A DNA stretch of 64,000 nt from Syntrophobotulus glycolicus DSM 8271 (GTDB lineage Bacteria; Bacillota; Desulfitobacteriia; Desulfitobacteriales; Syntrophobotulaceae): positions 3,224,001 through 3,288,000 of the forward strand of contig NC_015172.1 of NCBI RefSeq assembly GCF_000190635.1, in the 5' to 3' direction. Position numbers and translations under genes: made by a program. Within the stretch, counting starts at the first letter, position 1; every line of letters starts with the position of its first letter. Below the pieces are notes generated by a model that saw nothing but the letters and a program-made list of their open reading frames with translations, did no database searches and was not told the DNA's origin. Positions 31,977 to 38,121 of the stretch are shown piece after piece.

Positions 31977-33776
31977 TTAGTTTGCGCATTTAAAGAACTT
32001 TTTGTCTTTCCCGTAATAAAAGAGGTACCATCCTCCCTGAGCCTCCTGCGGAAGACCGTCTTTGGCTTTATTCAGGTTGGACATATCGACATGGAAATAG
32101 TCGATTGCGGTCGCTCGTTCCCATTGCCGTTTATCCATGGACTTGCTCTCAGGAATTCTGTCCTCCCACAAAGTCCTGTTCCGCCTTTGCTCTTTTGCCG
32201 TTTGATATCCTTTCGGTTCCAAAAGGTTTTTTCCCAAAAAATCCGGGATATTCCCCGGACGGTCTAAAAGATAATAATCAAATTTCAGGGTCTCCAGAAA
32301 AAAACCGAACCGGCGGCTCTCCTCTTTGGACGGAGTGGAGCCCAAAATATTTTTGACAAATAAACAAAGTTTCTCAAACAAGGCTTTTGGTTTCCAGGCC
32401 TGGCTAAACCACTTCCCTTTATGCCAGAAAGCCGCAAATTTTTGATAAAAAGTAAATGCGTCCGGGAAAAAACTTTCGGCATATTTCAAACTATAGGAAA
32501 ATATTGCGGAATTATAGTACTTCTCCAGGAGCTCTTCTATCCTTGTCAGCTCCAGAATTTCCTGATGGCTTAAGCATTTGGTTTGAAGTACAGTATAAGG
32601 CGGATCAGGCAGATAGGTGATTCCATATTCTATGCTTTGGCTCTCCAGCGCCGAACCTTTGAGCACTTTAAGAAATCCCAGTTGCAGGCGGTCAGGCCTT
32701 ACTTTGTAGACATCGTTAAAGGATTTTTTGAACTCTGCCGGGCCTTCCTCCGGCAGCCCGGCGATTAAATCCAGATGAACCGGGATGTTATCCTCATGTT
32801 GGATCTTCCTAATCTTTTCCTGCCAATCCTCAAAATTCTGCCGCCTGGCAATTGCCTCCAGCGTAGGCTGAAACGTGGACTGAACACCTATTTCCAATTG
32901 CAGCATTCCTTTGGGATAGGCAGCCAGATAATCCAGCCAGTCCTCATCCAGCAATTCACCGGCCATTTCACAATGGGCGCGGGGAACATCCTGGCCGGCA
33001 CCTGCATATTTTGCTGCCTCTTCTTTAAAAATATCCAGGATAGCGAACGCATGCGCCTTGCGGACATTAAATGTCCTGTCCACAAATTTGACCGTTCTGG
33101 CCCCATATTGCAGGATATTCCGCAGAATAGCCCTGAATTTGGATGACTCCAAATAACGGACCCCTTTCAGAGCGGATGAGATACAAAAACTGCAATGAAA
33201 AGGACAGCCTCTTGTTGTCTCGACATAAACCAGCTTCCCCCGCAGATCTTCAGGCTCCGAGTAAGGATTAGGGAGATGATTCAGTTCCGGAAGCAAGGCC
33301 TCTCGACTATTACTGACGATCTTATCCTTATGCCGCCACAACACCCCCGGTATATTTTCCGGGTCCAAACCCATCCTCCATGCCTGAAGCAGCTCGGGCA
33401 GAATCAATTCCCCTTCTCCAACAATAATGGCGTCAGCCTGAGGATTGTTCTTTAAAATTGCCGCGGAATCATAAGATACCTCCGGCCCTCCTAAAATGAA
33501 GCGTGTTTCAGGCAGCACAAGCTTAAGTCTCCGCACTAGAGAAAGTACCATGATGATATTCCAAATATAACAGGAGAAACCAATAAAATCCGGTTTCTCT
33601 TCATAGATTGCAGCAGCAATCCTTTCCGGCTGTTCATTGATCGAAAATTCCTTGCATTGAATTCCCCAAGAGCCGCCAAAGTCATTCTGCTTGGATTTTA
33701 GGGTTTGGCGCAAACTGCGTATCGCCGGATTCGTGTGGACATAACGGGCATTGATCGCTGCCAACAATAGCTTCAC
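31977..33776 (-). CDS. B12-binding-domain radical SAM protein (DUF4080 type)
   Basis: 599 aa. The N-terminal ~150 residues form a cobalamin-binding-like Rossmann domain (IGFSCYIWN, FILGGPEVSYD). A radical SAM core follows with CPFHCSFC, the C-x3-C-x2-C cluster site, and a B12/SPASM-independent C-terminal DUF4080 region. The reaction is not known for this family. The GTG at 33776 is chosen: AGGAG lies 10 bases before it inside the HAD gene, and only one base separates it from the HAD stop, so the two are coupled. Confidence 0.88.
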   Translation of the reverse strand: MKLLLAAINARYVHTNPAIRSLRQTLKSKQNDFGGSWGIQCKEFSINEQPERIAAAIYEEKPDFIGFSCYIWNIIMVLSLVRRLKLVLPETRFILGGPEVSYDSAAILKNNPQADAIIVGEGELILPELLQAWRMGLDPENIPGVLWRHKDKIVSNSREALLPELNHLPNPYSEPEDLRGKLVYVETTRGCPFHCSFCISSALKGVRYLESSKFRAILRNILQYGARTVKFVDRTFNVRKAHAFAILDIFKEEAAKYAGAGQDVPRAHCEMAGELLDEDWLDYLAAYPKGMLQLEIGVQSTFQPTLEAIARRQNFEDWQEKIRKIQHEDNIPVHLDLIAGLPEEGPAEFKKSFNDVYKVRPDRLQLGFLKVLKGSALESQSIEYGITYLPDPPYTVLQTKCLSHQEILELTRIEELLEKYYNSAIFSYSLKYAESFFPDAFTFYQKFAAFWHKGKWFSQAWKPKALFEKLCLFVKNILGSTPSKEESRRFGFFLETLKFDYYLLDRPGNIPDFLGKNLLEPKGYQTAKEQRRNRTLWEDRIPESKSMDKRQWERATAIDYFHVDMSNLNKAKDGLPQEAQGGWYLFYYGKDKKFFKCAN

Positions 33777-33777
33777 C

Positions 33778-34602
33778 TTAATTTTGCTCCTGTTTGATTT
33801 CTTGAGCAAGCACCAGGTTTTCGATGGCCTTGGCTACTCCGTCCTCAGCGTTGGAATCCGTTATGTAATCGGCTATTTCTTTTATTTCCTCCCGGGCATT
33901 GCCCATGGCCACACCGATCCCGGCATATTCAATCATTTCCCGGTCATTCCAACTGTCTCCGATAGCCATGACCTCTTCCCTCCGTATGCCCAGCTGGTCG
34001 GCCAGATCTTTAATGGCCGTTCCTTTGTTCACACTTTTATTTAACAGATCAAGGTAAATCGGTCGGGACGAAGTAAAATGCAGGCTTTGTGCATAGCGGG
34101 ATGTCAATTCTCCGGTCAATTCGGCAATTTCTTTTTCCCGGCCTATCAAAAGAATCTTTTCAAATCCTTCTTTTTCTTCTTTCATCAACGCGAAAACATC
34201 GGTTTCCTCAACATTAACCCCGGACATTCTCCGGTAGTAATCAGAATATTCATTGGCCTGATTGACAAAGACCCTATCCTTTACATAAACCTGAGTATGG
34301 ACTTTTCGATCAAGCAGTTCCCTGATAATCGGCTCAGCTAAGGATATGGGAATAACCTTGCGGTATAGAACTTCACCGCTTAAAGCCTCTTCAACCAGTG
34401 CTCCATGATAGGTAATCACAGGGACGTCCAACCCGAGTTCCTTTGCGAATTTCCTGCAGGATGCGGCCATTCTGCCCGTTGCCAGAGTAACCCTTACCCC
34501 CTGGGCCGCCGCTTGCCGGATCGCCTCCACATTGCGCCGAGAAATCTTCCAATCATGATTTAACAGCGTTTCATCCATATCAATAGCGATAAGCTTGATC
34601 AT
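33778..34602 (-). CDS. Cof-type HAD-IIB phosphatase
   Basis: 274 aa. HAD motif I is IAIDMDETLLNHD, motif II LATGRM, motif III Lys in SVNKGTAIKDL, and motif IV AIGDSWNDREMIEYAG. Cof-type HAD-IIB enzymes hydrolyse sugar phosphates, flavin or pyridoxal phosphates, so the substrate is open. It is directly followed by the radical SAM gene with a one-base gap. Confidence 0.93.
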   Translation of the reverse strand: MIKLIAIDMDETLLNHDWKISRRNVEAIRQAAAQGVRVTLATGRMAASCRKFAKELGLDVPVITYHGALVEEALSGEVLYRKVIPISLAEPIIRELLDRKVHTQVYVKDRVFVNQANEYSDYYRRMSGVNVEETDVFALMKEEKEGFEKILLIGREKEIAELTGELTSRYAQSLHFTSSRPIYLDLLNKSVNKGTAIKDLADQLGIRREEVMAIGDSWNDREMIEYAGIGVAMGNAREEIKEIADYITDSNAEDGVAKAIENLVLAQEIKQEQN

Positions 34603-34841
34603 TCCGATTTCTCCTTCAACATTCCATTTATCAGTATTATAGCATATTCCTATCCGGAAAAAAAAACAGCTTGAGCAGCTCCCGGGGCTATCGTTGTCCG
34701 GTAATCAAGGGTTTACCTTTCTTTTTCTTTGGAACTTTTCCGCCAGGCAAATTCACTATTTTCCACTTATTGGTATTGTCACAGCAAAAAATTTTTTCAT
34801 ATATTATATCGCACCGATATAATAAAGGGGATGAGAATGAG

Positions 34842-35618
34842 ATGATGATACCGCCAACCAATTATCCTACTCTGCAAATTGGCTCAACAGGACCTGCGGT
34901 TGTACATTTACAAGAAAGCTTAGTCGTTCAGGGCTTTGACCCTGGGATGATTGACGGAATATTCGGCCCAAAAACGCAGGCTGCTGTAATTGCCTTCCAG
35001 TCTTGTTGTTGCCTGGTCCCTGACGGCATTGTAGGACCTATTACATGGGCAGCGCTTGAAGCCGCCTGCCCGCCGCCTCTGGACCATCTTTCCGGAGCGC
35101 AGATGTCTTCCTGCATGCCTTATGTCTCTCAGGCGGGCTGCGCTCCTTCCGCTCCCGCCCGCCCGGCGCGCACTCAGAGCTGCCCTACTCTCAGAGAAGG
35201 TTCACGGGGAGCTTCAGTCAGAGAGCTTCAGACTCTTTTAAGCAACCATGGCTTTAATCCCGGGCCGATTGATGGTATTTTCGGTCCAAGAACCCGGGCG
35301 GCTGTTGTCTCCTTCCAGACCAGCAAGGGTTTGTCCCCGGATGGTATTGTCGGCCCAAGAACCTGGGCAGCGTTAGGCGTCAATTGTACTTCCTCTCCCT
35401 CGACAAAGTGCCCGACCTTGAGAAGGGGATCAAGAGGCTCTTCAGTCAGAACACTGCAGACCCGCCTGAACAACCAAGGTTTTAATCCCGGTCCTATCGA
35501 TGGAATCTTTGGTTCAAGAACCCAGGCGGCTGTGATTGCTTTTCAGAACAGCAGATGCCTTTCCCCTGACGGCATCGTCGGTCGAAAAACCTGGGCGGCA
35601 TTGGGTGGCTGCTGTTAA
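34842..35618 (+). CDS. protein with three peptidoglycan-binding repeats
   Basis: 258 aa. Three PG_binding_1 repeats (about residues 9-69, 115-180 and 190-256) each read LQ/REG-S-G-x-V-LQ, GFxPGxIDGIFG-xTxAAVxxFQ, and PDGIVGxxTWAAL. A Pro/Ala/Ser-rich linker (~70-112) separates the first two. There is no hydrolase domain and no evident signal peptide; the ATG at 34842 follows AAAGGGGATG. It may be a spore or cell-wall protein that binds murein without cutting it. This is inferred from domain content alone. Confidence 0.85.
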   Translation: MMIPPTNYPTLQIGSTGPAVVHLQESLVVQGFDPGMIDGIFGPKTQAAVIAFQSCCCLVPDGIVGPITWAALEAACPPPLDHLSGAQMSSCMPYVSQAGCAPSAPARPARTQSCPTLREGSRGASVRELQTLLSNHGFNPGPIDGIFGPRTRAAVVSFQTSKGLSPDGIVGPRTWAALGVNCTSSPSTKCPTLRRGSRGSSVRTLQTRLNNQGFNPGPIDGIFGSRTQAAVIAFQNSRCLSPDGIVGRKTWAALGGCC

Positions 35619-36288: not shown

Positions 36289-36327
36289 CATAATACTTCT
36301 ATAATAGTAAATACAAAAGGAGCGCCT

Positions 36328-38121
36328 ATGAGAGTACACGGTGAAACAGAAGGCTTAAAAAGTTCCGTATTGGAAAGATTGGACGCCCTTTATGACTTGC
36401 GTATTCCCCAGAATCAGCTCTGGACAGAATCCTTGGTTGAGGAAATCTCTTCTGTTTCTTCTGGAATCAACCGCGAAATCGCCGTCTATCTGGATCGTAA
36501 AGGAAACGTGACCGATGTCAGTATTGGGGACCATCAAACAGTGACTCTGACCGAGGTCGCGGGAAAACGAAACACCCGCCGGCTGACGGGAACAAGATGC
36601 CTTCATACCCATCCCGGGGGCAGCGGGATGCTATCCTCTGTCGATATCAGTTCTCTCAAGATATTGCGTCTTGATGCCATGATCGCAGTATCTGTACGCG
36701 ATGGCTGCCCCGGTGAACTGTTTGTCGGCGTGCTTTCGCCGGAAAATCCGGATGGGATCGAGCTTTTCGGGCCGCTCAGTCCGGGTCAGACCTCTTTTGC
36801 CGAATTGCTGGAGTCTATCCGGCATACTGATGATACCCTGCGCAAAACCCTGCCTGAAAATCTCAGTGAAGCAGAAAGAACTGTTCTGGTTGGAGTTCAG
36901 ACCCAGGAATCCCGTGACCTTAATGGGATAAGTGAAGCCGATGTCTCATTAGGCGAACTTGAGGAGCTGGCCAAAACAGCTGGAGCCACCGTTGTCGGCA
37001 AAATTTTGCAAAAACGTGACAGCCTCAGTTCATCGACCATCATCGGCCGCGGCAAACTGAATGAGCTCCGGCTTCTTGCCCAGGCCCTGGAGGCCGATAC
37101 TGTGATCTTTGACTGTGAAATCTCCGGGACCCAGCAGCGAAACATTGAACAAATCCTGGGTATAAAAGTCCTCTCCCGCCCAAGCCTGATTCTGGACATT
37201 TTCGCCCAGCGGGCGCGCTCCCGTGAAGGGATGCTGCAGGTGGAACTGGCCCAGATGGAATACCGGCTTCCTCGTCTGATGGGAATGGGCTTGTCTCTTT
37301 CCCGCCTGGGCGGGGGTATCGGAACCCGTGGTCCCGGTGAAACCAAGCTTGAAACTGACCGGCGCCATATCCGGACACGGATCACCCATCTTAGAGCACA
37401 GCTTGCCGGTATCCGCAAACAACGCGGAGTATTGCGAAGCGAACGTCAAAAGAGCGGAATTCCGGTTGTCTCTATTGTCGGATACACCAATGCGGGAAAA
37501 TCTACTCTCTTGAATACCCTGTGCCAAACCGCCGTCTTCGCTGAGGACAAATTATTTGCTACCCTTGATCCAACTACACGCAAACTGGAATTCAGTGATG
37601 ACCGTACTGTTCTGCTCACCGATACCGTAGGCTTCATCCGCAAGCTCCCCCACCATCTGCTTGAAGCTTTTAAGTCAACTCTGGAAGAGGTTGTCCTGTC
37701 CGATCTAATCCTGATTGTAGTTGATGCTTCCGATCCTCAGGTCGAGGACCATATTCGGATCGTTGATGAAATTCTCGGGGAATTAGGAGCATCAGCCAAA
37801 CCGGCTATCATTGTTTTAAATAAAATCGACAAGCTGGCGGATAATCCCGTAATCCTCTCTCGGGAAAACCGGCCGGTTATCGAAATCTCCGCCAGAACGG
37901 GCCTTGGGCTCGACCATCTTAAACACGGGATAGAAAAAATCCTGTACAGCAACCGAGTCCGGGTTAAATTAGCCGTCCCCTTTCAAGATGGAGCGGTTAT
38001 GGCCTGGCTTTATGCCAACAGCAAAGTCCTCTCAGCAACCTATGATGAAAACGTAAACATTGTTCAAGCAGAGTTGGACAAGGCACTATTAAAAAAGGTT
38101 TCACCCTATAGGATCAACTGA
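36328..38121 (+). CDS. hflX: GTPase HflX with N-terminal JAMM-like domain
   Basis: 597 aa, against ~420 for common HflX. The C-terminal ~400 residues are standard: the HflX N-domain (GRGKLNEL, AQMEYRLPRL, GIGTRGPGETKLETDRR), then the GTPase with G1 GYTNAGKST, G3 DTVGFIRKLPHHL, and G4 NKID. HflX splits or rescues stalled ribosomes. The first ~170 residues are an extra domain with E50, H93-x-H95, S103 and D106, which fit the JAMM/MPN+ zinc-site pattern E...HxH-x7-SxxD seen also in RadC. AAGGAG precedes the ATG. The fusion's biochemical meaning is unknown. Confidence 0.95.
   Translation: MRVHGETEGLKSSVLERLDALYDLRIPQNQLWTESLVEEISSVSSGINREIAVYLDRKGNVTDVSIGDHQTVTLTEVAGKRNTRRLTGTRCLHTHPGGSGMLSSVDISSLKILRLDAMIAVSVRDGCPGELFVGVLSPENPDGIELFGPLSPGQTSFAELLESIRHTDDTLRKTLPENLSEAERTVLVGVQTQESRDLNGISEADVSLGELEELAKTAGATVVGKILQKRDSLSSSTIIGRGKLNELRLLAQALEADTVIFDCEISGTQQRNIEQILGIKVLSRPSLILDIFAQRARSREGMLQVELAQMEYRLPRLMGMGLSLSRLGGGIGTRGPGETKLETDRRHIRTRITHLRAQLAGIRKQRGVLRSERQKSGIPVVSIVGYTNAGKSTLLNTLCQTAVFAEDKLFATLDPTTRKLEFSDDRTVLLTDTVGFIRKLPHHLLEAFKSTLEEVVLSDLILIVVDASDPQVEDHIRIVDEILGELGASAKPAIIVLNKIDKLADNPVILSRENRPVIEISARTGLGLDHLKHGIEKILYSNRVRVKLAVPFQDGAVMAWLYANSKVLSATYDENVNIVQAELDKALLKKVSPYRIN

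Follow-up and report, generated by a model that had tools for sequence, protein, structure and literature searches.

The single HflX protein of Syntrophobotulus glycolicus is a fusion, in which an N-terminal domain with an MPN fold and an exact, conserved JAMM active site precedes a complete HflX GTPase. Its gene lies in the window, i.e. the whole stretch of 64,000 nucleotides that was analysed. The fusion is old and mostly vertically inherited, and the site has decayed in two lineages. The physiological role of HflX, a near-universal ribosome factor, is still under debate, and JAMM domains are zinc metalloproteases of the type that removes ubiquitin in human cells. The MPN fold and the metal site are assigned with great confidence, and sequence and model together make the domain quite likely to be a working hydrolase. 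On balance, the protein is probably a housekeeping HflX with a catalytically competent N-terminal JAMM (MPN+) metallohydrolase that acts at the 50S interface, and the fusion suggests that bacterial ribosome rescue includes a cutting step of its own.

The long-form hflX gene (36328-38121, + strand) encodes 597 amino acids from an ATG start (coding part 36328-38118 without the stop codon). An AAGGAG resembling a ribosome-binding site is read at 36317-36322 (+), 5 bases upstream of the ATG. From about residue 182 onward the protein is an ordinary HflX according to TIGR03156 and the Pfam families GTP-bdg_N, GTP-bdg_M and MMR_HSR1. Within this canonical part (36871-38118, +), GTP-bdg_N covers residues 207-293 and GTP-bdg_M residues 295-373, the G domain begins at residue 381, and a weak HflX_C match spans residues 515-570. 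The TIGR03156 score of 457 bits over residues 185-538, against a cut-off of 216.75, places the protein within HflX and the GTPase core is complete. A model of the full-length protein reached a pLDDT of 82.5 and a pTM of 0.66, too poor for fixing the placement of the domains. The neighbouring genes, both on the opposite strand, are rubrerythrin-like and AdoMet-decarboxylase-like as named by reading their translations. Also by reading, an ORF at 34671-35618 holds three very similar peptidoglycan-binding-like repeats (PTLRxGSRGxxVRxLQ...DGIVGPxTWAAL) with no evident catalytic domain, and the gene at 31977-33809 (- strand) encodes a cobalamin-dependent radical-SAM-like protein with CxxxCxxC in TRGCPFHCSFC.

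The N-terminal domain comprises residues 1 to about 175 (36328-36852, +), based on the AlphaFold2 model and on profile and fold matches to JAMM proteins. Their active sites bind zinc and cut peptide or isopeptide bonds, and the published motif is EXnH(S/T)HX7SXXD (PMC300881). This motif is matched to the letter, with exactly seven residues between H95 and S103 and exactly two between S103 and D106. Conservation and the model identify E50 (36475-36477, +) as the predicted general acid-base glutamate. The segment H93-T94-H95 (36604-36612, +) contains two zinc ligands predicted from conservation and motif, H93 at 36604-36606 and H95 at 36610-36612, and is followed directly by P96 in the sequence HTHPGG. 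The segment S103-x2-D106 (36634-36645, +) contains the predicted oxyanion serine (36634-36636) and the predicted third zinc ligand (36643-36645). A sequence-only reading of the same DNA had placed E50, H93-T-H95-P, S103 and D106 in HflX and reported an exact HxH-x7-SxxD pattern, all of which proved correct. The span it gave, 36463-36650, does contain the site, but covers only residues ~46-108 of the domain.

In the six frames of the 64-kb window, hflX has the only copy of the H[ST]H-x7-SxxD core, and among the neighbouring ORFs at related loci (740 ORFs, 223,619 aa) none contains it. A chance motif is ruled out by these two results and by the conservation across the phylum. As a single sequence, residues 1 to ~175 gave no significant Pfam, NCBIfam or PDB match; the domain is visible through profiles only.

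A domain profile was built from 69 member domains. Searched against PDB sequences, it retrieved AMSH-LP (E=0.0022), Sst2 (0.013), STAM-binding protein (0.015) and an archaeal Rpn11-like protein (0.2). In a Pfam scan of single members, Prok-JAB was matched by 41 of 69 (best E 9.3e-5) and RadC by 22 of 69 (best 0.0011), and hhalign gave E-values of 0.00094 for RadC and 4e-3 for Prok-JAB at low probabilities of 22% and 9%, respectively. A sequence-profile relation to known JAMM proteins was found in this way, with modest E-values of 1e-5 to 0.02.

The AlphaFold2 model of the domain has a pLDDT of 91 and a pTM of 0.87. It consists of a helix (34-47), three strands (50-56, 60-67 and 89-96), a second helix (104-113), three further strands (117-124, 127-136 and 144-150) and a terminal helix (158-174). 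This order, a-b(E)-b-b(HxH)-a(SxxD)-b-b-b-a, is the MPN element order, and in the model E50 opens strand 1, HTHP closes strand 3 and S103/D106 begin the following helix, as in JAMM proteins. The Foldseek ranks 1-17 were all MPN/JAMM or unnamed, at E-values of only ~1e-3. The VIA-align Z scores were 7.7 for PfJAMM1 (over 110 residues at 16% identity), 6.8 for Sst2 (5.8-6.8 for AMSH, AMSH-LP and Sst2), 6.8 for yeast Rpn11 and 6.7 for RadC (2qlc), all below 8 and within the range reachable by chance according to the warning of the tool; its rows are also one-sided, and the absence of other folds among them proves nothing. The JAMM identification holds despite these Z scores because motif, profile and fold agree. 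A match to the MPN fold, on which the sequence-only reading had staked its claim, is seen with the AlphaFold2 model, the profile search against the PDB, Foldseek and VIA-align. The RadC-like relation that it had proposed is also borne out, by the retrieval of RadC in two genomes with the domain profile and by the hhalign E-value and the 2qlc score given above.

Between strands 2 and 3, where a helix is usual in JAMM proteins, the window domain has a loop of ~20 residues (68-88; 36529-36591, +), modelled with low confidence (pLDDT ~51-78). Residues V72, L74, R81, R85, L86 and G88 are conserved in this candidate substrate-binding loop, and a natural guess from the model is that it becomes ordered by substrate. 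The replacement of the helix before HxH by an arginine-containing loop would also suit a hydrolase of a non-peptide bond, such as a peptidyl-tRNA ester or a nucleotide, in ribosome rescue; peptidyl-tRNA is held where HflX works, and the JAMM and cytidine deaminase folds are related (PMC300881). We consider such an activity very improbable, as the residues E, HTH, S and D follow the peptidase and not the deaminase pattern and the top sequence and fold matches are peptidases. No support was found in this analysis for a deaminase-like over a protease-like module.

An initial alignment covered 53 long-form relatives, and none of the 53 deviates at any motif residue. A search of a broad genome collection matched at least 575 loci, and the best 80 of them all encode HflX fusions, from Clostridia, Negativicutes and relatives. 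With the window protein included, 81 of 81 keep E50, S103 and D106, which are the only independent evidence in this set because it was partly picked by the pattern RC[IVL]HTHP. A motif-independent sample, in which a profile search of 398 genomes was pooled with the first sample, yielded 72 distinct long-form HflX proteins. All five residues E, H, H, S and D are present in 59 of the 72, and 13 retain the domain without the zinc-site histidines. Both histidines are gone in 12 of these 13, and one is aligned with a single H, its E, S and D all being absent. The losses belong to two groups on the HflX-core tree: nearly the entire site is absent in families f41 and f93, while family f85 retains E and S with HTH changed to FTR or FTK. 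The sequences concerned (L150, L153, L154, L249-L251 and L254-L260) constitute a natural MPN- control set. The expectation that long-form HflX proteins would conserve these residues is upheld, the two lineages above being the only ones to have lost them.

MPN- proteins are known to have lost the zinc site as a unit, and the joint loss of the residues looks like the decay of a catalytic centre. In the 13 site-less long forms the domain may also be useful without catalysis, or may be decaying. Their retention of the domain would fit a module that binds metal without catalysis and serves for ribosome docking or as a sensor, similar to an MPN- scaffold, with zinc only as a stabiliser and HflX binding or splitting as the activities that it tunes; the extension of mycobacterial HflX is a purely rRNA-disordering arm (PMC12493154). 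However, a structural zinc needs neither E50 nor S103, yet both are invariant wherever the histidines are present, and the active site is the most conserved segment of the domain (mean entropy 0.80 compared to 1.0-2.7 in other segments). A docking or sensor role on its own is therefore judged unlikely.

The domain was found in 38 of 199 genomes sampled from the phylum, each time in a long frame consistent with an HflX fusion, and HflX in 157 of 199 equally drawn genomes. About one in four HflX-bearing sampled genomes (38/157) thus has the predicted hydrolase fused to HflX, largely with a perfect active site. The only non-HflX matches of the domain profile at E<=1e-4 in 398 genomes were two RadC proteins. 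Apart from these, no stand-alone copies were seen in the genome samples of the phylum, the 398-genome search included, and the profile found nothing beyond HflX in the S. glycolicus genome. On a quick HflX-core tree with many forks open, the long or short state changes 4 times, against 19.9 times with shuffled labels; the fusion is therefore old and mainly vertically inherited. The short HflX proteins of some genera of the window's own family (L065 and L066) stand apart from the long forms of the family on the tree, which suggests replacement rather than simple domain loss. In family f2 of the same order (L052-L064), the JAMM-bearing HflX frames are only 535-555 aa long, the alignment to the window HflX mostly ends at residue ~503-525, and the usual HflX C-terminal domain is apparently missing. 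The longest HflX frames (L270, L272 and L276) were considered as carriers of an extra domain, and their added length is mainly C-terminal and not JAMM.

Among 80 long-form hflX loci, neighbour genes gave no clue to a substrate: there is no conserved operon partner, the largest ortholog cluster reaching at most 13 of 80, and no ubiquitin-like or E1 gene is evident among the recurrent neighbours. The neighbours vary by clade. A spoVK-like gene lies upstream in one clade, as it does at ordinary Firmicute hflX loci. Beyond the window, the S. glycolicus genome contains two related operons (L292:1967-5787 and L293:2688-5474) for ThiS-like, E1-like ThiF/HesA, Prok-JAB protease, sulfite-reductase-like and TusA-like proteins. 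The ThiS-like C-termini are GGGAR or GGGR, i.e. capped, and one of the operons adds an O-acetylhomoserine sulfhydrylase-like gene. Judged by their gene content, these operons look like HcyS/HcyD-type protein-bound sulfur-transfer systems. This leads to the question whether the JAMM domain has a ubiquitin-like sulfur carrier as its substrate and works away from ribosomes, with HflX merely coupling the GTP or stress state, since the two ThiS-like proteins encoded beside E1-like and Prok-JAB proteins would be candidate substrates in the same cell. Both operons already own a JAMM protein, however, so that the sulfur-carrier JAMM work appears to be served, and the 80 long-form loci lack a conserved gene as described above. 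This role is considered quite improbable.

The favoured reading remains that of a housekeeping HflX with a catalytic JAMM domain. HflX-GTP splits ribosomes, and its ND1 displaces H69 (PMC12493154). The JAMM domain would use H93, H95 and D106 to hold one Zn2+, E50 to act as the general base and S103 to stabilise the oxyanion during hydrolysis of a peptide or isopeptide bond. HflX in its GTP form would enter the intersubunit space and bring the JAMM domain to the 50S interface side near uL16 and H38, by analogy with the unrelated extension of mycobacterial HflX. This placement is proposed because the linker from the JAMM domain to the HflX ND1 is only ~10 residues long and the mycobacterial extension is seen there. 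Ribosome splitting may expose a protein, tail or modifier there for trimming or deconjugation by the domain. The chances of a ribosome-bound substrate are put at slightly short of even. The resulting prediction is that a covalent processing step is tied to the splitting of ribosomes. More tentatively, the protein could be a GTPase-coupled ribosomal metalloprotease whose splitting of the 70S ribosome goes together with the cutting or deconjugation of a ribosomal protein, of a nascent chain or its tail, or of a modifier on the 50S. If true, its logic would make it a bacterial counterpart of Rpn11 or of the peptide release in eukaryotic ribosome quality control.

No paper naming a fusion of HflX with JAMM, JAB1, a JAB domain or RadC was found in the open-access literature searched, and HflX is not mentioned in a survey of prokaryotic JAB proteins (PMC1779556). 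The JAMM and HflX modules are both of known kinds, and their combination, its breadth and the conserved site appear to be undescribed in the open-access papers searched. A 2025 review refers to N-terminal HflX extensions in several Clostridium species without stating their nature (PMC12493154).

Canonical HflX (TIGR03156) has the same full core without the N-terminal JAMM domain. The N-terminal extension of mycobacterial HflX is 39-58 aa long, contacts uL16 and H38 and reaches toward H69-71 (PMC12493154), whereas that of the window protein is a folded, enzyme-like domain of ~175 aa and does not belong to the mycobacterial type. With RadC (PF04002) the domain shares the JAB fold, the HxHP-x6-SxxD pattern and a conserved Gly past strand 2, but it has HTHPGG instead of HNHPSG and lacks the invariant GSLN and HPRE segments. 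The window protein has no RadC match up to E 10 (Pfam cut-off 22.1 bits), and the same genome encodes a separate RadC gene. By these sequence signatures, the domain falls outside RadC. The Prok-JAB, Mec+ and HcyD-like sulfur-carrier proteases (PF14464) have the JAMM site in common with it and account for the weak matches of the 41 members, but they sit in ThiS-ThiF operons without a link to HflX, and the window protein itself is unmatched at the Prok-JAB cut-off of 25 bits.

The archaeal desampylases and deubiquitinases PfJAMM1 and CsRpn11 have the same site, and PfJAMM1 is the best fold match; in contrast to the HflX fusion, these proteins are stand-alone or Ubl-linked. The best PDB profile matches are the eukaryotic JAMM deubiquitinases AMSH, AMSH-LP and Sst2 (M67), which share the exact motif and a near-identical HTHP-x6-LSSVD stretch. 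The inserted zinc-finger-like element of these enzymes was not identified in the HflX domain, and unlike them the window domain is fused to a ribosomal GTPase, in a host without ubiquitin.
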